Shown here in pieces: positions 13,741 through 53,327 of a DNA stretch of 64,000 bases. The number at the start of each line of letters is the position of its first letter. Positions within the stretch are counted from its first letter, which is position 1. This DNA is from Candidatus Mailhella merdavium (lineage in GTDB: Bacteria > Desulfobacterota > Desulfovibrionia > Desulfovibrionales > Desulfovibrionaceae), in assembly GCA_019119045.1 (NCBI GenBank), contig DWXS01000009.1:1-64000 (forward strand). Direction: 5' to 3'. The notes beneath the pieces were generated by a model that ran no database searches, was not told the origin of the DNA, and saw nothing but the letters and a program-made list of their open reading frames with translations. The translations under genes and the position numbers were made by a program.

Positions 13741-14115
13741 ATGAAAGACAAAAATACGGAAGACGGCGGACGAAGTGCCGCTCGGCAATGGGTGACGATC
13801 CGCGTCACCGAAAGGGAAAAAACGCGCCTCACGGAGCAGGCGGAAATCGCCGGGCTGTCCCTGTCGGAATACATGCGGCGACGTTTTTTCGGAGGCAGGC
13901 CGCTTGTGGCCCATACGGACCTGAGTGCCGTAGCGGAATTGCGGCGCATCGGCGGCCTGCTCAAACACAATTTTGAGACGCTTCGGCAGGCCAAAGCTCC
14001 CCCGGACATTCTGGAACGCCAGGAAGACGCCCTGCGGAAACTGGTCTGGGCCATCCAGAAAATTTCACTGCGTTGCCATCATGATCGTCAAGAAAATCAA
14101 GAATACGAAAACTGA
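13741..14115 (+). CDS. Relaxosome accessory protein (NikA/TraJ-like ribbon-helix-helix)
   Basis: VTIRVTEREKTRLTEQAEIAGLSLSEYMRRRFFG; between oriT and relaxase. Confidence 0.8.
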   Translation: MKDKNTEDGGRSAARQWVTIRVTEREKTRLTEQAEIAGLSLSEYMRRRFFGGRPLVAHTDLSAVAELRRIGGLLKHNFETLRQAKAPPDILERQEDALRKLVWAIQKISLRCHHDRQENQEYEN

Positions 14116-16336
14116 AAAGCCCAAGGCGTGGCAGATAGGCGACCTGGTGGATTACATCCGCTTTCCCCACAACAGGAACCCGCAGGAAAAAATCGAGTGC
14201 GCGGGCGGAAGGAACTTTCTTTCAGCAACCCATACAGGTCAGAAAGCAGAGATGATCGCTCTTGCGCGGGAGTCGGTCCACAGCCACATGCCGGTGCAGC
14301 ACTGGATGTTTTCCTGGCAGGAAGGCGAGCAGCCCACCAGGGAACAGGTGGAGGAAGTGGTGGATATGTTCCTTGAAAAAATGGAGCTGGCCGAACATCA
14401 GACTGTCTATGGGCTGCACTACGATACGGACAATTATCACCTTCATATCGCGGTCAACAGAATGAACCCGGAAACGGGAAAAGTCGTGCTCCCGTTCAAC
14501 GGATTAGACATCCGGGAAGCGCATAAAATCGTGGCTCACATTGAGAGCGGACAAGGATGGGCCAGCGAAGAAAATCCCATGTATGCGGTATTGGAAGACG
14601 GTGAGCTGGTGCGAAGAAGGACGGCCCGTGAAATAAAACCGAAACAGGCCGCGCTGGATTTTGAACACGCCACCGGCGAAAAATCCGCCCAGCGCATCGC
14701 GCAGGAGCGCGGGCATTCCATCATAAAAGACGCGCAATCGTGGCCCGAACTGCACAAAAAACTGGCGGAAGTCGGTTTGCGTTTTGAGAAGAAAGGCTCC
14801 GGGGCCATCATTTTTGTGGGGGAAAAGGCCGTGAAGGCATCCTCCGTAGACCGTGTGTTCAGCATGGGAAAGTTGTGCAAAAGGCTGGGGGAGTTTGAGG
14901 AAGGAACGTACCCGGATGCCTTGGGAAAGATTGCCCCGGAGCCGGTAAGCTCCGTCAATCTGGACGCATGGAAAATGTATCAGGAAGAGTTCGCCGGAGG
15001 CCAGAGAAGGGCAGGAACAGCAGGTAATGCCGAGCTTGCCCGGATGAAGGAACGGCACAGGTTCGAGAGGAAAAAGGCGCTTTCCCACTTGGCGAAATAT
15101 GGTTTGCCGGTTCTGAATATCGCCCGGCATTGCCTGATGGCGCAGCAGAGAGCGGAACGGATTTCCCTGCGGTCAGGCCGGAAAAAAGTGCGTGGAGGCA
15201 AGCCGCGTTTTGAGAACTGGCTGCGGTCACGAGGCATGGAAAAGGAGGCAAATTGCTGGCGGTATCGGGCGGCACGGGAGGAAAAAAGACACACCTCGCC
15301 CCCTGCCGAAAGACGGGAAAAGGGAGTGGAACCCATGCGGGAACTTGCGGATTTCAGAAAGTATGCGGATGCGGTGAATGCGGAACGCTACCGTGTGACC
15401 TGCATAAAGATGGAAGAGGACGGCGGCAAAAAGACCTTTATCCTGGACAAAAAAGGCGGCATGACCAGAGGTTTTTCCCCGGACGAACTGGAGGCTCACA
15501 TACCGGAGATGCTGCGCTTCCAGAAGCGGGGTGAAAATATCTACTACACGCCGCTATCGGATGATCGGCATCACATCCTTATCGACGACATGACCCGTGA
15601 CAGCCTGAAAAAGTTCCAGGAAGACGGCTTCCGGCCTGCCGTGGTGCTGGAAAGCTCGCCGGGCAATTACCAATGCCTGTTGACCATTCCCCGGCAGGGT
15701 ACGGAATTTGACCGGGATGTGGGCAACCGCATTACGGAACGCCTGAACCGGGAGTATGGCGACAAAAAGCTGTGCGGCTGCATCCATCCGCACCGCGCGC
15801 CCGGCTTCGCGAACCGTAAGCCGAAACATAAGCGAGAAGACGGCGGCTATCCCCAGGTGAAGCTGCTGTTCGCGGAGCGCCGCGAATGCGGCAAGGCGCT
15901 GGCGCTGGCCAGAAGGATTGACCATGAGTACGCGGAGGCTGCCGAGAAGCGGAAGGCCGAGCGCCGGACATTCCCGATGTCGGACTTTCGGCCCGGCGAC
16001 CCGGCTTCGGCCTATTATGCCCATCTGGAGAATATCCGCAGGCATCTGACCATTGAAGACTATTCCCGCGTGGATGCGATGATCGCCCTGCGGCTGCGCT
16101 CCAACGGCCACAGCCGGGAAAGCGTGGAAGAAACCATCCGCACCTGTGCCCCGACCATCCGGGAAACGCAGACCGGGCGCAACTGGCAGCGGTACGCCGA
16201 GAGAACGGCGGATTACGCTTTCGGCCCGGCAGGAGACAGAGATCTGGAACGGAATGAGCGGTATCGGGAGTTATGGAGAAAAATTGAGAATGGAGGATAT
16301 AAAGAAAAGAGTAAAACTGGCTTGAGGTTACGGTAA
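14081..16336 (+). CDS. MOBP relaxase (TraI/NikB-like) with C-terminal RepB-like primase domain
   Basis: LVDYIRF, HWMFSW, HYDTDNYHLHIAVNR (HxH motif), later NYQCLLTIPRQGTEFDRDVGNRITERLNREYGDKKLCGCIHPHRAPGFANRKPKH. Confidence 0.88.
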   Translation: MIVKKIKNTKTEKPKAWQIGDLVDYIRFPHNRNPQEKIECAGGRNFLSATHTGQKAEMIALARESVHSHMPVQHWMFSWQEGEQPTREQVEEVVDMFLEKMELAEHQTVYGLHYDTDNYHLHIAVNRMNPETGKVVLPFNGLDIREAHKIVAHIESGQGWASEENPMYAVLEDGELVRRRTAREIKPKQAALDFEHATGEKSAQRIAQERGHSIIKDAQSWPELHKKLAEVGLRFEKKGSGAIIFVGEKAVKASSVDRVFSMGKLCKRLGEFEEGTYPDALGKIAPEPVSSVNLDAWKMYQEEFAGGQRRAGTAGNAELARMKERHRFERKKALSHLAKYGLPVLNIARHCLMAQQRAERISLRSGRKKVRGGKPRFENWLRSRGMEKEANCWRYRAAREEKRHTSPPAERREKGVEPMRELADFRKYADAVNAERYRVTCIKMEEDGGKKTFILDKKGGMTRGFSPDELEAHIPEMLRFQKRGENIYYTPLSDDRHHILIDDMTRDSLKKFQEDGFRPAVVLESSPGNYQCLLTIPRQGTEFDRDVGNRITERLNREYGDKKLCGCIHPHRAPGFANRKPKHKREDGGYPQVKLLFAERRECGKALALARRIDHEYAEAAEKRKAERRTFPMSDFRPGDPASAYYAHLENIRRHLTIEDYSRVDAMIALRLRSNGHSRESVEETIRTCAPTIRETQTGRNWQRYAERTADYAFGPAGDRDLERNERYRELWRKIENGGYKEKSKTGLRLR

Positions 16337-18583: not shown

Positions 18584-21500
18584 TTACCTCATGCGCGGAC
18601 GTGAAATCACAAATCCATGTACGCCGCCGGTGGGTGAAGCTGTCTGAACGGCTGCTTTGGCCTGCGGAGTCGTGAGCTGTCTGTATGCCTCCACATGCTC
18701 CAGGGCTTCCGCAAGGCTGTCAAAGGTGGCGTTAACGGTGCGCGCTCCGTTGATGATATGGTTTTTTTCGTACTGGACACGCAGACCGATTTTGTCGTTT
18801 CCCGTCTGAAATACGAGCAGTTCATACATTCCGCCGTCTACCGCATTCAGAGTCAACGCATGTTCGTTTTTGCCGTAGAAATCGCTGCCGGTAGGATGAA
18901 AACCGGCCATGGCAAGCCGTTCACGGAAGGTTTCGCTATCCAGCGCCGACGCTGGCGCGGCGGTTTCGGCGGGCGGCATTTCTTTAAGCCCGCGTTGTGC
19001 AGCGTCACTGCGGGCAACCTGTATGGCTGCTTCCCGCGTCTCGAACTGTTTGAGTTTCATACCGCTCGGCGCGGTCGCCGTGCTGTGCCACTGACCGTCC
19101 TCGTACAGACTTTGCCCCAGGGAACCGATGCTGCTGTTGAAATAGGCGCGGCGCAGGACATACCCGTTTTGCAGTGTATAGCCGTTGTGCTGATTGGATA
19201 CGGTGTATTCCGTTCTCCCTTCACCTTCGCCGTATTTAAGCGTGTGAGCCTGTTTTTCCGGCGGCGCGGCGGGAACTGCGGCAGCGCTGTCCGCCTTCGG
19301 CTGGGGCGCTTCCGTTGTTGTCGGCTGTTCATCGGTCAGAGATGTTTTCGGCGTCCAGGTGGAGACGTAGCTCGAATCATCCTGCATCCGCTGCAATTCC
19401 CGGATGACCGCGCTGTGATTTTCCCGTGCCAGAGCCAGTTCTTCCTGCTGCGGAAACTCCTTGCCCAGAGCGGCCTTGACCGTTTCCAGTTCGGCCTTTT
19501 CCTGCCGGGCTTTCTCCCGCTGCGTTTCCACAGCCTCATCCAGCCCCCTGGACAGAAAATTGTCCATGCGCTGAAACAGACCGGCCAGACTGAACTTTTC
19601 CTCAAAATCGTAGAACAGATTCCCCGGCCGGAACTCCCGTTCACCCGCCCCCCGAAGCGAAAGCTGAAAACCGTCCTTGCCGCTCATGCGTGTTGTCGTG
19701 CGTTCGACAGAGACTTCAAAACCGCGATAGAAGCCGAACGGAAATTCTGCGCTGGAATCGCGGGTGACTTCCTTCACGCCTTCAAGCAAACGGTCTTTTA
19801 TCTTTTCGCTGTCCTTTGCTGTCAATGTCTTGCCGTCAGCCGTCAGCTCCACCAGGATTTTTTCTTTCCCCTTTTCCATGACCGTGCGGGTATGGGAATC
19901 CCTGCGGCGGATGTTTTCCGCATACAGAGTTTCCTCTTTGGCAAGTCGTGTTTCCGTGGAAGCAAGATACTTGAGGCGGTCGCGCATCCGATGCTGGCTG
20001 CGCTGATGCTGCGAATACAGGGCTTCCAGATTGCGCAGATCGGCGGCAAGCTGTACCTGCATGAGAATAAGCGGATTACCGGATGCTGCGGCTTTCATTT
20101 CGGCGGCGTTGGCGGCTTCCGAGGCTACATCGTCAATGACGCGCTGGAGAAGATCGCCCTTGCGAAACTGTTCAATGGCTGCCGATTTGTACTCTATACA
20201 TTGCCACATCCGCGAGTCGTAAGTCATCTTTGTGGCATAGTTGAATATTTTTACAGTAAAAGTATCAGGGTTTCGTTCATAAAACATGTTTCCCTGACGG
20301 ATAATTCTTCCATTGCGTTGCTCCAAATCTGACGGCCGCCACGGCGCATCAAGATGATGCGCGGCCACAAGCCTTTTCTGCACATTCATGCCAGCGCCCA
20401 TCTTGGCGGTTGAGCCAAGAAGAACACGAACACGGCCTGTGTTCATGTCGCTGAACAACTTTGCTTTCCGTATATCCGTGTTGGCATCATGGATGAAGGC
20501 AATTTCATCAGCGGGAATCCCCTTTGCCATGAGTTTTTGCTTCATGTCGTCATACACGGAGAACTTGCCGGACGACATGGCGATGACTTCATCCATATTG
20601 ACGACACCGGCAAGAGCGTCGTCCCCGTCATCTTCGGCCATGTCTTCCTGTTCCGGCGTTTCGCGGACAAGAGTACCGTCCACGTCGATAAGCGCCCCGG
20701 ATTCCAAATTCTGCCGTTCGCTCTGAGCGGATGCCGGAGCCTTCCCTCCCTTGGGCGTGGACAAATCACAAAAGACAAGCTGCGTTCCCTTGTCATTGGT
20801 TGTATCGCGCCAGATGTCGTATATCCGCTCGACAGCCGCATTGAGCTTGGAGCCTTCAAAATCATCGGCGGTCGGCTCTATCAGCCGGTAATCAAGCCCC
20901 GCTTTTCTGGCGTCATTGGTGACTTTGAGAGGATTGTCGATGCGCGGGTCTGGAGGAAGATTCTCCATGCGCTGGATGATCTTGTCCATATACGCAGCCT
21001 GAGCCGGGGAGCGTTCCACCACATCATTATAAGGCTTGCCTCCCTCAATCGGAGGCGTCAGAGGTCGTTCCCCGGCCTGTTTTGCCTGTACATCAAGATC
21101 GGCTTTTGTCACCACATCGGCAAAAGTCCGATACATGGACAGCAGTTCCGGCACGTTTTGGAACTTGGCGAAGCGGCTTTTTAACTTGTAGTTCACGCCA
21201 GTTGCATCCAACTCCCAACCGCTTGTGACCTGCCCGAAAGTTGATGCCCACGCATCAAAATGTTCAATATCCTTGTTTTTCAGTTCATCATACTGCATGT
21301 AGCGTTGCAGGGTATAAACTTCGGCAATGGTATTGCTGATGGGAGTCCCTGTCATGAAGTACACACCGCGCCCGTTGTTCTGACGTTGCAGATAACGACA
21401 CTTGATGAACAGATCGAGTGCCTTGGCGGATCCGGTAACATTGCCGAGGCCGGAGACATTCATGGTAGTCTGGAAGGCGAGATTCTTGAACTCGTGGCTT

Positions 21501-24500
21501 TCGTCGATAAACAGGGCATCCACGCCCAAATCCGAGAAATCCACGGCCCGGTCTTTTTGCCCAGTTCCGGCAAGCAGGGCATTGTAGCGTTCCTCCATTT
21601 TCTCGCGCTGTTTCTCAAGCTGCTTGATGGTGGCCCGTCCGCCTTCAGCGGCTTTGGAAGCCTCAATGGCCTCGATGACCGCGTCAATCTGTTCCCTGAG
21701 AATCTCCTCCTGCACGTCGCGGGGCATGTCGATTTTTTTGAAGGAACTGTGTGCCACAATAACGGCATCCCAATCGCCGGTGGCGATACGTCCAAACAGC
21801 CGTTCCCGGTTCTGTTTGGTGAAGTCCGTCTTGTCGGCTACCAGAATGTTCGCATCGGGATAGAGTTTATAGAATTCATCTTTCCACTGATATAACAAGT
21901 GGTTGGGGACGACAATCATGGGCTTGGAAAGAAAGCCCATGCGTTTTGATTCCATGACAGTAGCGACGCAGGCCAGCGTCTTTCCCGCTCCCACCACATG
22001 GTCAAACAGACAAGTGCCTTCCTGAATGGCCCTCCAGACCGCGTTTTTCTGATGCGGACGCAGTTTGACGGCTTCGGAAGCGCCCACCAGCTCAAGATGG
22101 GAACCATCATAGGTCGGCGGGACGTTTGTGTTGAATTTTTCATTGTAGAGCCTGGTCAGCATGTCGCGCCGTTCATCGTCCGTCCATACCCAATCGAGGA
22201 AAGCCTGTTTGATTTCATCGGCCTTCTGCATGGCGGCGGCTGTCAGTTCCTGGTCGATGACCATGATGGGTCTGCCTTGGTCGTCATGCTGGCCGCTTTC
22301 CTTCTGCACCTTGATGGGCTTGTTCATGAGCAGGGCTTCGATAATCTTTCCGGCGGAATATTCGGGAATGCCCCAGACGCTGGAGGCAAGCGAAGCATCC
22401 CATATACTGACGGACGCTTCCCAGCGGCCCAGCGTCGGCAGATAATTGATGGTCTGCATCCCCTTGCCGCTGTGCAGGTGTTCCACGAAGTCGGCAAAGA
22501 CCTGCGCCGGAACCCAGGAGGAGCCGAACCTGATGCCGATGTCCACGGCCTCGATGTCCGGCGGCATGGCTGCGGACAGGGCCTCCACATTGGGAGCGAA
22601 GCGGGCGTCCGTTTGCGCTGCTTCTTTCGCCCGTGCCAGTTTGGCCCTGACATTGCCGGTCAGGTATCTGTCGCGGATTTCCCATTCCTCGGTGGAAGGA
22701 TTCAGGAAAATCTGTCCCTGCTCGCGCAATTCCGTCTGAATATCCTCAGCCGGACGATGCAGGAGCCGCGACATACGGCTGAAGTCCACCCTGCCGTTTT
22801 CCCGCAGGGCAATAAGCAGGGCATCCTTGATGGTTTCCGCCTGTTCCACCACCTGGGCGGGTCTGAGTACCCGTTGCCGGAAAATGGCGGCTTTTTTCGC
22901 TGACGCCGGACGAGCTTCGCCGCCATGCTTGCGGGCCGTCTCCGGCGACAGGCCCTTGTCGTAATCCAGCTCCAGCGACTCCAGCAGGGAATGTTCCGGG
23001 TCGCTCCGCATGAGGCCGCGATTGGTCTGGGAATTGAGATGGCCATATTTTCTGACAAAGGTATCATACTGCGAATTGAGCCTCTGGCGCAGCGTCGCCA
23101 TCCGACCTTCATCGGCGTTGGCGGACTTTTCCGTATTGAGCAGTTCGCGCAGGGTATCCCGGATTTGAATCATGGAAACCAGACGCAGACGGGCCGTCTC
23201 ATTCTTGACCGGGAAAATGTCGTAGTCGCTTTCACCGAATGCGGCGGCGGTCTTGAAGACAATCTTCCGGCTTTGCGGCTCGACGCACAGGGCGTCCGCT
23301 TTCAGGGACTGGAAATACGGGCTGCGGATGAAGTCGGCGTTGCGTACCCTGACTTCCGTATTGAGCGGATTTTCCTCCTGCGGCACGAAACAGTCCGCCG
23401 GAAGCACATCCAGCCGGGAGGCGATTTCCTGTCCCAAATCCACATGTGCCGGATCAGGCAAACAGGCCAGCGCACCCTCGAACATCCCCCCGGAAAAGGC
23501 CAGTGTGCCGATAATCTGCCGGGGATTTTCCACAAAGTAGCTGTTGACCGTGGCCGGACGCCTGCCGCCGTTTTTGAGGTCATCAACTTCTATGGAGGCG
23601 GTGTTCACCCAATCCCGGCTGTGCAGTTTTTCCCCGGAATTTTTCTGGAAGAACACGATGTCCGTGGTCACATCGGTCAGCGCGTTCTGGCGGAATGCCG
23701 TTTCCGGAAGACGGACAGCCCCCAGGAAGTCGGCGTATTGCGAGATATGCTCACGCGCCGAGGAATCGACGGCATCCATGAAATAACGGCTGACCACAAA
23801 GGCCGCGACGCCGCCTTCCCGCAACAGATTGATGGACTTGGCGAGGAAGTAGTTGTGGACAGAGAACTTTCGCAGTTCGGGAAAGTCCGGGTCGTATAAT
23901 GTTTGGTTGCCGAAGGGGGGATTGCCGACTACGGCGTCTATACCGCCGGAGCGAATTTGACTGTTCTGAAAACCAATATTGAGATGTTGCGCTTTGGGAT
24001 AGAGGTATTGCGCGATGGATGACGTTGTGGGATCGAGCTCAACCGCAAGGAAGTTTGCGTTAAAATCTTCGGGACAGAGGCCGATGAAATTGCCGATGCC
24101 CGCCGAAGGTTCAAGAATACGGAGCGGTTCTCCAGTACCAAGGCCAAGGCGGGAAAGCCCCTCATAGATACCTCTGATAACGGTTTCCGAGGTATAATGG
24201 GCGTCCTGAGTGGAACGGCGGGCGGCAGCGTAGTCTTCCGGGGAAAGCAGGCCCTGCATTTCCCGGTATTCGGTGCCCCATTGCTCGTTTCTGGCGTCAA
24301 AGACCTGCGGCAGGCCGCCCCATCCCACATAGCGAACGAGGACTTTCTGCTCCTCCGGTGTGGCCAGTTCCGCGCCGCTGGTCTGGAGCTGCTTGAGCAG
24401 GCGTATGGCGGCGACGTTATCCGCATATTTGGTTTTCGCGCCGCCAACGCCCAGCCTGTCCTCGGAAGTTATTTGGTAATTTTCAGGCTCATGTCGATGC

Positions 24501-25261
24501 CCATACTCTGCAATATCTCCGAATCCGACATCCCCCGCAGGCTCGCCTGCCGAGCTGTCTCGCTGCTCAAGGCTCTCGCTTCCGTCTGCTGCTGTCCGTA
24601 CACCTTCAGATCGAAGGCTATGCTCCCCATTGCCTCCAGCTTCTTCAGTTCTTCGGGACTGTTCAGCGCCCAGCGATCCAGAATCGAGTAGCCCAAACTG
24701 GTGTACCCGCCGCTTCTCACGTCGTTGATGGTTTCGGGCTTGAGAACTTTTCGTGCGATTTCGAGCGGATAGGTTTGTCTGTCGAGCATGTTGCACCTCC
24801 AGAGAAAGGGTATGAGTGAACTCGGAAATTTCCTGTATGGTCAGATAGTCGTCGGCTCCGGCTTCAAACAGTTTTTCGGGCGTTCTTTTTTCACCGTCAA
24901 GGAACTGCATGATGGCCGTGTTGGGGCTGTACATGCGGGAGCCGTCTTGCAGCTCATATACGGAATCACCCCTTCCATTGATGCCAAGGCGTCTTTTGTC
25001 CCCGTCATTTGTGGGGAAGGGAAAAGGCTTTTCTGTCCGTGCCGGTTCCGGCTGCCGTTCCTCTTCTTTTACCGGTTCCATCTGCAACGACATGGCAGGA
25101 ACAGCCTGTTCCTGTTCAACCTGTGCCGCGGGAGCGGGGATACTTTCCTCCCGCATGTCGTCCTGAATGTTTTCTTCCCGTATTTCCTCGATCTGGTTCG
25201 CCATGAGGTCGAAGAACGACAACTGGCGGGGATCGTGTGTCTGCTTGCGCCGTCTGGCCAT
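18584..25261 (-). CDS. Giant (2225 aa) mobile-element helicase/N6-adenine methylase fusion (SNF2-type helicase plus NPPF MTase)
   Basis: GGIDAVVGNPPFGNQ; FDHVVGAGKTLACVATVMES; FIDESHEFKN; GSTAKMGAGMNVQKRL; DAPWRPSDLEQRNGRIIRQGN. Confidence 0.87.
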   Translation of the reverse strand: MARRRKQTHDPRQLSFFDLMANQIEEIREENIQDDMREESIPAPAAQVEQEQAVPAMSLQMEPVKEEERQPEPARTEKPFPFPTNDGDKRRLGINGRGDSVYELQDGSRMYSPNTAIMQFLDGEKRTPEKLFEAGADDYLTIQEISEFTHTLSLEVQHARQTNLSARNRTKSSQARNHQRREKRRVHQFGLLDSGSLGAEQSRRTEEAGGNGEHSLRSEGVRTAADGSESLEQRDSSAGEPAGDVGFGDIAEYGHRHEPENYQITSEDRLGVGGAKTKYADNVAAIRLLKQLQTSGAELATPEEQKVLVRYVGWGGLPQVFDARNEQWGTEYREMQGLLSPEDYAAARRSTQDAHYTSETVIRGIYEGLSRLGLGTGEPLRILEPSAGIGNFIGLCPEDFNANFLAVELDPTTSSIAQYLYPKAQHLNIGFQNSQIRSGGIDAVVGNPPFGNQTLYDPDFPELRKFSVHNYFLAKSINLLREGGVAAFVVSRYFMDAVDSSAREHISQYADFLGAVRLPETAFRQNALTDVTTDIVFFQKNSGEKLHSRDWVNTASIEVDDLKNGGRRPATVNSYFVENPRQIIGTLAFSGGMFEGALACLPDPAHVDLGQEIASRLDVLPADCFVPQEENPLNTEVRVRNADFIRSPYFQSLKADALCVEPQSRKIVFKTAAAFGESDYDIFPVKNETARLRLVSMIQIRDTLRELLNTEKSANADEGRMATLRQRLNSQYDTFVRKYGHLNSQTNRGLMRSDPEHSLLESLELDYDKGLSPETARKHGGEARPASAKKAAIFRQRVLRPAQVVEQAETIKDALLIALRENGRVDFSRMSRLLHRPAEDIQTELREQGQIFLNPSTEEWEIRDRYLTGNVRAKLARAKEAAQTDARFAPNVEALSAAMPPDIEAVDIGIRFGSSWVPAQVFADFVEHLHSGKGMQTINYLPTLGRWEASVSIWDASLASSVWGIPEYSAGKIIEALLMNKPIKVQKESGQHDDQGRPIMVIDQELTAAAMQKADEIKQAFLDWVWTDDERRDMLTRLYNEKFNTNVPPTYDGSHLELVGASEAVKLRPHQKNAVWRAIQEGTCLFDHVVGAGKTLACVATVMESKRMGFLSKPMIVVPNHLLYQWKDEFYKLYPDANILVADKTDFTKQNRERLFGRIATGDWDAVIVAHSSFKKIDMPRDVQEEILREQIDAVIEAIEASKAAEGGRATIKQLEKQREKMEERYNALLAGTGQKDRAVDFSDLGVDALFIDESHEFKNLAFQTTMNVSGLGNVTGSAKALDLFIKCRYLQRQNNGRGVYFMTGTPISNTIAEVYTLQRYMQYDELKNKDIEHFDAWASTFGQVTSGWELDATGVNYKLKSRFAKFQNVPELLSMYRTFADVVTKADLDVQAKQAGERPLTPPIEGGKPYNDVVERSPAQAAYMDKIIQRMENLPPDPRIDNPLKVTNDARKAGLDYRLIEPTADDFEGSKLNAAVERIYDIWRDTTNDKGTQLVFCDLSTPKGGKAPASAQSERQNLESGALIDVDGTLVRETPEQEDMAEDDGDDALAGVVNMDEVIAMSSGKFSVYDDMKQKLMAKGIPADEIAFIHDANTDIRKAKLFSDMNTGRVRVLLGSTAKMGAGMNVQKRLVAAHHLDAPWRPSDLEQRNGRIIRQGNMFYERNPDTFTVKIFNYATKMTYDSRMWQCIEYKSAAIEQFRKGDLLQRVIDDVASEAANAAEMKAAASGNPLILMQVQLAADLRNLEALYSQHQRSQHRMRDRLKYLASTETRLAKEETLYAENIRRRDSHTRTVMEKGKEKILVELTADGKTLTAKDSEKIKDRLLEGVKEVTRDSSAEFPFGFYRGFEVSVERTTTRMSGKDGFQLSLRGAGEREFRPGNLFYDFEEKFSLAGLFQRMDNFLSRGLDEAVETQREKARQEKAELETVKAALGKEFPQQEELALARENHSAVIRELQRMQDDSSYVSTWTPKTSLTDEQPTTTEAPQPKADSAAAVPAAPPEKQAHTLKYGEGEGRTEYTVSNQHNGYTLQNGYVLRRAYFNSSIGSLGQSLYEDGQWHSTATAPSGMKLKQFETREAAIQVARSDAAQRGLKEMPPAETAAPASALDSETFRERLAMAGFHPTGSDFYGKNEHALTLNAVDGGMYELLVFQTGNDKIGLRVQYEKNHIINGARTVNATFDSLAEALEHVEAYRQLTTPQAKAAVQTASPTGGVHGFVISRPRMR
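24469..24789 (-). CDS. 106-aa ORF nested out of frame inside the helicase-methylase ORF, with strong SD
   Basis: GGAGGT-5nt-ATG; MLDRQTYPLEIARKVLKPETINDVRSGGYTSLGYSILDRWALNSPEELKKLEAMGSIAFDLKVYGQQQTEARALSSETARQASLRGMSDSEILQSMGIDMSLKITK. Confidence 0.55.
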   Translation of the reverse strand: MLDRQTYPLEIARKVLKPETINDVRSGGYTSLGYSILDRWALNSPEELKKLEAMGSIAFDLKVYGQQQTEARALSSETARQASLRGMSDSEILQSMGIDMSLKITK

Positions 25262-50667: not shown

Positions 50668-51834
50668 TTATGTGTAAGCGGTTATGGGAAAATCAGGCGC
50701 ACCGAAGACGCTTTCCCTACGGAACGTCGCGCCCATGCCCTTCAGAATTTCTCCCACTGAACGACACGGATTTCCGCCGTTCTTTCGGACAACCAGCGGC
50801 GCTTCCCGTTGCATCCGGTATTCGACAGTCTGGCGGCGTTTGTAATCCTGGAGAAACTCGCTGATGCTCAGGGTATTTCCTGGTGGCACATCGTCCGCCG
50901 ATGGCGCGCGGTCTTGGGAATGCAGGTGCAGCCAGATGCCGAACGGCATGGCATCATTGGCGACAGGCGGAAATTTCGCCGCAAATGCATCGAACAGAGG
51001 CCGCAGTCGCGCCTTGTTCGCGATCCATGCCTCATGCTGGCGTTGTTCACGCTCCTCCCGTGCCTGCATTGCCCTCCGCAGGTCTTGCGTGCGTTCCTGT
51101 CCTGTCTGACCGGAGGGCCGCACCGGATCGAGCCAGCGTTGTCCGCGCAGCCAGTTGCCCATTTGCGGTACGAAGCGTCCCTGTTCGCGTTGCCAGCTTT
51201 CCGAGGAAGCAAAGCGTCGAATGGCGGCATGAAGTTCAGCCAAAGGCGGCAGCTCTCCACTTCGCAGGAGCTGGAGCCAGGCCAGACGTGCGAAGCCCTT
51301 GGCCTCCTTTTTGGGGTACATGGCCCAGGTGGATTCAAAATCCTGAAGAGAAGAAGCCGCACACCCCGCCGCAGGCGTTCCGACCATGCGGCGAACAGGA
51401 TTGACCGTCTCTCCGGGCATATGGGGGGAAAGGGGGGAGTATTTTTCTTTTCTTTGTTTGCTAAGATTGTTTAAGTAGCCAGATTTTGTCTCATGGCAGC
51501 CAGCTTCTGACTGCTTGTCGGCAAAATGTGTCTCTTGCTTTTTGGTCAGTTCTTCAGGGCGCAGAAGATAGTAAACAGAAGAACGGTATTGCTCCCGTTT
51601 GATGGAAATGAGTTTTTCTCTGACAAGTTCAGCAATGTAGTTTTTGACGCTGCTGATGCTGCATGAAAGTCGTTTGGCAAGCGTTGCCTGTGAAGGCCAG
51701 CAATGGTCTTTATCGGCGGCATAATCACACAAAATCGCGTACATGGTTTTTGCTCCAAACGTAATGGACATTTGCAGAACAAACTGTGGCAGAATTGGGC
51801 CGTAAATATTTCCCTTTGGGGCAAACGTCTCCAT
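50668..51834 (-). CDS. HTH replication-initiator-like protein, first gene of the leftward transfer operon
   Basis: MYAILCDYAADKDHCWPSQATLAKRLSCSISSVKNYIAELVREKLISIKRE (HTH_36/replication protein type). Confidence 0.65.
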   Translation of the reverse strand: METFAPKGNIYGPILPQFVLQMSITFGAKTMYAILCDYAADKDHCWPSQATLAKRLSCSISSVKNYIAELVREKLISIKREQYRSSVYYLLRPEELTKKQETHFADKQSEAGCHETKSGYLNNLSKQRKEKYSPLSPHMPGETVNPVRRMVGTPAAGCAASSLQDFESTWAMYPKKEAKGFARLAWLQLLRSGELPPLAELHAAIRRFASSESWQREQGRFVPQMGNWLRGQRWLDPVRPSGQTGQERTQDLRRAMQAREEREQRQHEAWIANKARLRPLFDAFAAKFPPVANDAMPFGIWLHLHSQDRAPSADDVPPGNTLSISEFLQDYKRRQTVEYRMQREAPLVVRKNGGNPCRSVGEILKGMGATFRRESVFGAPDFPITAYT

Positions 51835-51882
51835 TTTTTCTTTCTCCCGGCCCGAAAAAAGACAAAAACAGCAGATTCGTTA

Positions 51883-51911
51883 TTGACAACGATGAACCTT
51901 ACGGTTACTGT
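51883..51911 (+). promoter_or_regulatory. Candidate sigma70 promoter TTGACA-17-TACTGT antisense to the rep-like leader
   Basis: Direct reading. Confidence 0.5.
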
Positions 51912-51912
51912 T

Positions 51913-51937
51913 GTTCTCACATTGCATTAGTAAGAAC
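51913..51937. promoter_or_regulatory. Near-perfect palindrome GTTCTCAC-N9-GTAAGAAC, candidate operator
   Basis: 7/8 match between arms; resembles the AbrB-upstream repeat at 25510. Confidence 0.45.
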
Positions 51938-52045
51938 ACAGTTCTGCAAGAAGCCGTTGAGTTGCCGCTCGACGGCTTTTTTGTTTTCCTGGGCTTGTGC
52001 TATTTCCTTAATGGAAAGTCCTCGTGAGGCGAGTTGGCGAATCAT
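51917..52045 (-). CDS. 42-aa leader ORF upstream of the rep-like gene (hand translated)
   Basis: MIRQLASRGLSIKEIAQAQENKKAVERQLNGFLQNCVLTNAM*; HTH-like, protein-like composition. Confidence 0.35.
   Translation of the reverse strand: MIRQLASRGLSIKEIAQAQENKKAVERQLNGFLQNCVLTNAM
51918..51982 (+). ncRNA. Candidate countertranscribed RNA of about 65 nt ending in an intrinsic terminator
   Basis: Promoter at 51883-51911; 11-bp stem (one G-T) aagccgttgag-ttgccg-ctcgacggctt then TTTTTT at 51951-51982. Confidence 0.4.
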
Positions 52046-52204
52046 TCAAACGTGGGCATCACGCATAGCCGTGGAAGCAGCGCCGGGGAGGCTTCCGGCG
52101 TCTGCCCGGAGTACGGTGCGGCCAGTGGAGGCGCACGTATGCGTGGGTGGGCGTCTGGAACCGAAGAAAGAAGGACGTGGCCGTATATGAAAAAAACTCC
52201 CGCC

Positions 52205-52302
52205 GACCATGTGGGACACATGGTCACAAGGAGTTCTGTACGGAGAACAAAAAGGAACACATCCGAAAAAAGTGAAATTTTTTCGGAAAAATTTTTGTTC
52301 TC
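52205..52302. repeat. Cluster of inverted repeats in the operon leader: 9-bp hairpin plus nested 11-bp and 10-bp inverted repeats
   Basis: gaccatgtg-gga-cacatggtc; GAGAACAAAAA(52243)...TCCGAAAAAA-gtgaaa-TTTTTTCGGA...TTTTTGTTCTC(52302). Confidence 0.85.
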
Positions 52303-52488
52303 GATAACTACGGTATATTCTTGGGGAAATAAAAGCTGACTGGCAAAAAACGGATAAGAAAACGGATAAGCAACCAAGGAAGAAAGCCGGTAAAACCTGT
52401 CAGGCTCCGGCTCCGGTATCTTCCTATAAATATAAGAAATTAAAGAAAAACTGTCCGCATTGGACGTATTAGTCCGATATGTGAGGGA

Positions 52489-52511
52489 CTCTCTCTCTCT
52501 CTCTCTCTCTC
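52489..52511. repeat. (CT)11 dinucleotide microsatellite
   Basis: ctctctctctctctctctctctc. Confidence 0.95.
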
Positions 52512-52578
52512 ATTCTTTTTTTCCTGGATATTTGTTATATTGTTATTCTATTGTAAACTGTTCTTATGTGTATGTCTA

Positions 52579-53268
52579 GGGTGTGTCTGCAAACCCTCTT
52601 CACAAAAAAAGGAAGTCTGGTTAGGTAAGTTTTTTATCGTGCTACGACAGGGAAATGTGCTACTATGACATCCCTGAAGACCTCTGGCTCAGACTTGAGC
52701 CTATACTGCCGACAGAAGCTTCTCCTCGTGGAGGGCGACCGACTGGTGACGTCAGAAACTTTCGCAATGCTGTATGTACATTGGATGCTGCGAACCGGAT
52801 CTCCATGGCGAGCTTTGCCAGAGAAATACGGTTCGTGGAAAACTGTATATTCCCGTTTCAGGCGTTGGCAGAAAAGAGGATATCTAACTGCTATTCTTTA
52901 GTTCTTATCTTACTATCACGGCAGGACAATCCTCCGAGTATCCACAAGCCAGTAACCTTCTAATACGGTATCATAACACAACAATTCCAGCCGATAAGGG
53001 GTATGACAGCAGGAGTCTCATCGATGCGCTTTACCATCAGGGATGTGAAGCAGTTATTCCCTCCGAAAGGACGAATCGTCATCCCCGTACCATCGACAGA
53101 CATCTCTGCAAGGAACGCCATCTTATAGAGACGTTTTTCAACAAGATCAAGATTAAAGAATATCGTAAAATTGCAACTTGTATGACAAACTGGTAGAAGT
53201 TTTTGCGGGCTTTGCATACCTGGCTGCTTCACTTATCTGGCTTCGATAAGAGGTTTGCAGACACACCC
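52579..53268 (+). mobile_element. Internally deleted IS5-family (IS427-like) element, 17-bp perfect terminal inverted repeats, TA target duplication
   Basis: TA|GGGTGTGTCTGCAAACC ... GGTTTGCAGACACACCC|TA; frameshifted transposase fragments YDIPEDLWLRLEPILPTE, VHWMLRTGSPWRALPEKYGSWKTVYSRFRRWQKRG, IPADKGYDSRSLIDALYHQGCEAVIPSERTNRHPRTIDRHLCKERHLIETFFNKIKIKEYRKIATCMTNW. Confidence 0.88.
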
Positions 53269-53327
53269 TAGTCAAGAATCCAGAATTTACCATGCAGCCC
53301 TGACGTGCTTCAGGAGGAATTTCCCCC

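Follow-up and report, generated by a model that had tools for sequence, protein, structure and literature searches.

The leader of a replication-initiator-like gene heading a conjugative transfer operon in the Desulfovibrionaceae is likely to form the module that controls replication of an integrative and conjugative element, with an antisense RNA that would lower initiator synthesis as copy number rises. The window analyzed here is a 64,000-nt stretch of DNA, and all coordinates are positions within it (Table 1). In the proposed mechanism, the leftward mRNA would carry a target hairpin (SLI), a cloverleaf (P1 to P4), and a hairpin over the Shine-Dalgarno (SD) sequence and AUG (P5), ahead of the coding regions for the initiator and the Dot/Icm-type transfer proteins. 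From a constitutive promoter within this leader, an opposite-strand RNA of ~65 nt would be transcribed, ending in a terminator hairpin that mirrors SLI. The antisense hairpin would kiss SLI by its loop and then spread along P2; this pairing would block formation of the cloverleaf, P5 would stay closed over the start, and initiator synthesis would fall. The antisense RNA would probably set the output of initiator protein per element. We infer RNA production, binding, translational repression, the role of P5 as the off state, and shared control of the transfer genes; a single antisense RNA serving both replication and transfer is compatible with the order of the operon. If true, conjugative elements integrated in the chromosome would be subject to plasmid-style antisense copy control, with a single RNA-controlled message serving both initiator synthesis and the transfer machinery.

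Table 1. Features of the leader, its surroundings, and related loci (window positions unless a locus is named)
Feature	Position	Strand	Basis
Rep-like gene opening the transfer operon; replication-initiator-like product (HTH_36, O-like/primosomal)	50668..51834	-	Pfam, PHROG, Foldseek
P5, predicted pairing of the U-tract with the rep SD (51844-51848) and AUG	51832..51872	-	MFE
Leader cloverleaf domain P1-P4	51871..51947	-	MFE, RNAalifold, pair counts vs shuffles/slides, covariance model
Cloverleaf parts	P1 51943-51947/51871-51875; P2 51913-51937; P3 (GNRA loop) 51895-51906; P4 ~51877-51893	-	
SLI, putative antisense target in the rep leader (hairpin complementary to the terminator hairpin)	51951..51980	-	MFE folds, RNAalifold, stem comparison
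Antisense promoter TTGACA-17-TACTGT (TTGACA 51883-51888; TACTGT 51906-51911; spacer 17 nt)	51883..51911	+	Direct reading; conservation
Inverted repeat GTTCTCAC/GTAAGAAC	51913-51920/51930-51937		Direct reading
Predicted antisense RNA, ~65 nt	51918..51982	+	Ends deduced from promoter and terminator
Intrinsic terminator of the antisense RNA (stem 11 bp, 51951-51961/51968-51978; loop TTGCCG, 6 nt, 51962-51967; T6 51977-51982)	51951..51982	+	Direct reading, terminator scan, conservation
42-aa ORF, proposed leader peptide	51917..52045	-	Rejected as conserved gene
Sense-strand terminator-like hairpin upstream of the leader (U-run 52190-52196)	52197..52236	-	Kept in close homologs
Two tandem 12-mers TTATCCRTTTTC (52352 and 52364, spaced by 12 nt); iteron or integrase arm-site candidates	52346..52377	-	
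Type II hammerheads (RF02276) upstream of rep/transfer operons	L021:1219-1284; L028:1210-1273; L030:2757-2819; L037:1217-1290; L073-L082; others		

The original prediction, made from this DNA alone, had named a promoter, a palindrome just after its -10, and a terminator, and direct reading confirmed all three at the coordinates it gave. The terminator hairpin was also the top-ranking terminator-like site of the region in a terminator scan. The window -10 matches only 3/6 consensus bases and the site was absent from the promoter-scan list; given this weakness by sequence, the case for the antisense promoter is built on conservation. Mirror complementarity between the antisense RNA and its target is automatic in any antisense transcript and is by itself no evidence. 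Scored against ctRNA_pGA1 (RF00236), the window's antisense RNA reached 23.1 bits, where the gathering cut-off is 45 bits and sequences elsewhere in these genomes gave up to 34 bits; this overlap was dismissed as chance level.

The promoter, the terminator, and the leader structure, together with their conservation, were demonstrated by sequence comparison. Loci were collected by a contig search and from a set of 288 family genomes, of which 61 had a match, and 46 homologous leaders were extracted for the promoter count. TTGAC-N17/18-TA was present in 41 of these leaders, 46 to 71 nt 5' of the rep start, and missing from five (L029, L031, L042 twice, and L057). The same motif occurred in 10 of 10 distant leaders picked solely by a hammerhead upstream of a distant rep homolog, and the -10 consensus of the nearer clades was TAnnnT. 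Promoter and terminator were kept down to ~28 to 42% protein identity, with compensatory terminator stems (GCCGTTGAG in the window clade, GCTCCTGTG or GGCTTTCGTG in piger-type leaders, GAAACCCGC in distant ones). Stems were wholly different in sequence yet paired in divergent homologs, e.g., L037, L038, L073, and L082; by this comparison, the stem sequence is replaced across clades and the hairpin retained. The predicted antisense RNA was 59 to 81 nt long and closed by a terminator in nearly all leaders, although for L073 and L075 the length script took an earlier T-run and the terminator hairpin was seen by separate inspection. Conservation in related elements, one of the two points on which the original prediction was staked, was thus found for promoter and terminator alike, and it supports the prediction of a short RNA complementary to the leader of a T4SS operon whose first gene is of the replication type. 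As judged from this conservation, that such an RNA is common to dozens of related bacterial mobile elements is well supported.

By homology, the gene after the leader appears to encode a phage O-like replication initiator. Its product matched Pfam HTH_36 (4e-13) and no RepA family, and its PHROG matches (best 1.6e-34, residues 16-274) fell in replication initiation, primosomal, and O-like families. The AlphaFold model had a mean pLDDT of 69 and a pTM of 0.35, with a usable winged-helix part. Its best four Foldseek matches were weak (E 0.006-0.016) and all to an initiator or DNA-binding domain, with Rep or initiator in the names of two; the top matches included a Rep-DNA complex and an initiator, with E-values all >0.001. 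Behind the gene, the operon continues with DotH, TrbI/DotG, DotI, and further type IVB genes. Near relatives retain DotH and TrbI after the rep-like gene, whereas piger-type relatives (~40% identity) have TraL-, TraM-, and TrbB-like genes downstream instead, so the rep-like gene heads transfer operons of two types. An integrase lies at 1683-2984 of the window, and the same element carries a relaxase with a fused RepB-type primase domain (13973-16333); chromosomal genes lie to its right. Copies of the rep-like gene in single-contig genomes lay within the chromosome and a search of plasmid records returned no close homolog, which together identify the element as an integrated conjugative element; a search for att repeats flanking it found none. 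An IS5-like stretch (52577-53275), with similar copies in related genomes, adjoins its right end. The window also encodes a 2225-aa protein (18584-25261) that combines Eco57I/N6 methylase domains with SNF2/ResIII helicase domains; a restriction-type role in defense is probable.

This setting bears on an alternative in which the protein under antisense control regulates transcription of the transfer operon and the RNA times conjugation, replication not being involved. The position of the gene at the head of transfer operons, Dot/Icm-type in near relatives and TraL/TraM/TrbB-type in piger-type ones, would suit such a regulator, as would the chromosomal location of the copies in complete genomes and the lack of a plasmid record with a close homolog. 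We nevertheless consider it unlikely, as the PHROG families matched over nearly the full length are those of replication initiation, primosomal, and O-like proteins, and the phage matches carry annotations of RepA-like or protein O.

The structure of the sense leader is a further line of evidence for antisense control of initiator synthesis. In most leaders, SLI preceded a four-way junction, P1(P2,P3,P4), in the MFE fold. Because the all-clade MAFFT alignment (A1) mis-registers hairpins, covariation was counted only on a 13-sequence alignment (A2). Folding the leader and looking for covariation, checks proposed with the original prediction, revealed two-sided changes in the cloverleaf across these 13 leaders (10/33 pairs by RNAalifold). 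Ten two-sided pairs were observed against a shuffle mean of 5.1 (0/500) and 1 to 2 in slid versions, and 93% of cloverleaf cells were paired compared with 27 to 41% after sliding. Since the shuffle control leaves relatedness in, the slid control and the divergence of the set were also relied on. Folding energies of the sense strand were low (mean z=-3.0). In most leaders, P3 was closed by a sense-strand GNRA tetraloop (GUAA, GGAA, GAAA, or GCAA) that falls within the spacer of the antisense promoter, and its retention there points to selection on the sense RNA at that site. A covariance model built from the 13 leaders was run over 285 genomes, and 28 of 33 matches lay directly upstream of known rep homologs. 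The model added L126 and L127, identical over the stretch compared, in which a hammerhead flanks the leader just upstream of a distant winged-helix ORF. Matches L129 and L130 (which look unrelated), L128 (in which the rep ORF does not follow directly), and G209 were excluded as support.

In the window, P5 is predicted to fold as a nearly unbroken hairpin burying the SD and AUG, and the U-tract was paired with the SD/AUG region in 38 of 53 MFE leader folds. Blocking the region covered by the antisense RNA in constrained folding lowered the mean unpaired SD from 0.39 to 0.31 in related sequences, and made hardly any difference in the window (0.60 to 0.53). The effect is small and not decisive, and constrained folding was set aside as a direct demonstration of SD switching; given so small a predicted loss of SD accessibility, switching is the weakest part of the model.

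The antisense RNA might instead act on transcription, by polymerase interference or by premature termination of the rep/tra mRNA as in pT181/pIP501-type attenuation, rather than by blocking translation. The U-tract conserved after the cloverleaf and the conserved sense terminator-like hairpin further upstream could serve such a mechanism. Against it, the U-tract is better read as the partner of the SD/AUG region, with which it pairs in the folds above, and no strong hairpin lies directly before it; interference alone requires neither two-sided covariation of P2 to P4 nor variable hairpin loops. Attenuation or interference as the mode of action seems unlikely.

The original prediction also proposed a leader-peptide switch. 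The 42-aa ORF and a 111-aa ORF (52042-52377, TTG start) exist where it placed them and overlap as ATGA. The ATG of the 42-aa ORF was found in only 2 of 10 aligned close homologs (the window and L017), and indels or stops disrupt its frame in most of the ten, so this part of the prediction fails and the ORF was rejected as a conserved gene. Coupling of the IncI/IncFII type, in which translation of the 42-aa ORF would open the rep start and the antisense RNA would block that ORF, could appeal to the ATGA overlap in the window but is made very doubtful by this broken frame. Pairing between the SLI loop and the rep RBS likewise did not exceed that of permuted pairs (own pairing 10.23 vs. 10.40 within-clade permuted, p=0.81), and an IncI-type pseudoknot was rejected for want of covariation by permutation. 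The 111-aa ORF crosses the sense terminator-like hairpin and an AT-rich stretch, and neither ORF is conserved or looks like a gene. The weak window -10 might suggest that promoter and terminator arose by chance or as a side effect of structure and yield no functional antisense RNA; this is hardly credible given that TTGAC-N17/18-TA is conserved and the terminator stem has fully changed across clades. Further upstream, the tandem 12-mer pair TTATCCRTTTTC/TTATCCRTTTTT recurred at equal 12-nt spacing in 11 leaders, and possible roles are as origin iterons or integrase arm sites. A perfect AT-rich palindrome, TCCGAAAAAA/TTTTTTCGGA, occupies 52262-52287, and its counterpart in L018 differs yet pairs.

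Outside the window clade, the leader is associated with type II hammerhead ribozymes. RF02276 scored above the Rfam cut-off in 20 of 28 such leaders found by protein similarity and just below it in 4 more. The hammerhead held a fixed position just 5' of the antisense target, its 3' end ~200 to 220 nt upstream of the rep start where checked (L021 and L037). As type II hammerheads occur in 102 of 288 genomes of the family, it is the association with the leader, and not mere presence, that matters. Positions 51400-53300 of the window gave no match to RF02276 even at E=10, and L014 to L018 of the same clade gave none at any reported threshold; a hidden hammerhead in the window clade was accordingly discarded. 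Where other clades have the hammerhead, the window clade has a conserved stretch (52035-52180; GTGATGCCCACG, with a hairpin GGGCAGACGCCGG..CGGCGCTGC) that had no Rfam match.

The antisense-transcribed P2 of the piger-type, distant, and L050 leaders contains a second copy of the rep SD region. Leaders with such a copy included L035, L037, L048, L055, L073, L078, L079, L081, and L082, for example CACTAACAAGAG in L081 and GGAGCGATC in L055; original and copy both show changes specific to their clade. Similarity to the SD of the same locus exceeded that of dinucleotide shuffles in most of these leaders (p ~0.003-0.05). The antisense RNA of two divergent clades thus contains an anti-SD, which could, judging from its sequence, pair directly with the start site. 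The window clade showed no SD-copy excess in its antisense RNA, and the copy was for that reason not used to explain the window. Tentatively, conjugative elements of the Desulfovibrionaceae may have in common a composite RNA switch that opens the replication/transfer operon and consists of a hammerhead that defines the mRNA 5' end, an antisense target, and the cloverleaf; in two clades the antisense RNA, carrying the complement of the initiator RBS, would recognize both its own leader and the start site, and the window clade would have kept the antisense RNA and cloverleaf and lost the ribozyme. The fixed site upstream of a putatively antisense-regulated initiator gene, repeated over many elements, offers a testable setting for bacterial type II hammerheads.

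Target loops also diverged between leaders. On one chromosome (G097), the leaders L048 and L049 had 0/149 flank differences and differed at 5/8 loop positions, which by analogy resembles the divergence of incompatibility loops, and in other piger-type pairs loop changes far exceeded flank changes. If true, loop sequences would predict which elements can coexist in one cell. Within the window clade, the target loop was conserved or 1 to 2 bases different and not hypervariable, so we do not extend the pattern to the window. The window's own genome (G000) has a second rep/antisense leader with a different SLI and target loop (L012, contig C33) and a distant copy with a hammerhead (L013/L083, contig C88).

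Several known systems share parts of this arrangement. SGI1 is an integrative element that replicates after excision and has a leader region and rep gene (PMC10954446). Its S004-repA region is thus alike in placing a leader upstream of rep on an integrative element; unlike the module described here, it has an IncN2-type RepA, the leader peptide S004, and activation by AcaCD, a layout not matched here. Type II hammerheads were described by Perreault 2011 in prophage and integrase contexts, and the word conjugat- is absent from PMC3088659; RF02276 hits above the cut-off were seen here in relatives of the leader, not in the window clade. pMV158 replicates by the rolling-circle mode, and its RNAII lies near the repB start. 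As given in PMC4485353, antisense RNAII inhibits translation of the initiator gene repB, whereas the antisense RNA described here lies ~85 nt upstream of the start and an SD copy occurs in divergent clades only. In the R1/IncFII CopA-CopT system, an antisense RNA transcribed within the rep leader limits initiator synthesis, according to Blomberg 1992 as cited in PMC10724649; that system has the tap leader peptide, and no tap-like conserved ORF is present here. A parallel in layout lies with plasmids of the I-complex (IncI, IncK, and IncB/O), in which RNAI, ~60 nt in IncK, acts against SLI of the repZ leader, its hairpin mirroring SLI and changes in the top loop defining incompatibility (PMC10724649). 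Both have a short antisense RNA mirroring SLI, with promoter and terminator within the rep leader, and the target loop UUGGCG of four relatives equals the ColIb-P9 motif given in the title of a reference of PMC10724649. Unlike the I-complex, the present leader has no conserved leader peptide and has a cloverleaf after SLI, its carrier is an integrated element, and its initiator is O-like with HTH_36 and not assigned to the IncFII/RepZ family. The IncI/IncB analogy of the original prediction hence stands for the layout and falls for the leader peptide and pseudoknot covariation, and with an initiator of another family the module is best regarded not as a member of IncI but as a variant of antisense replication control.
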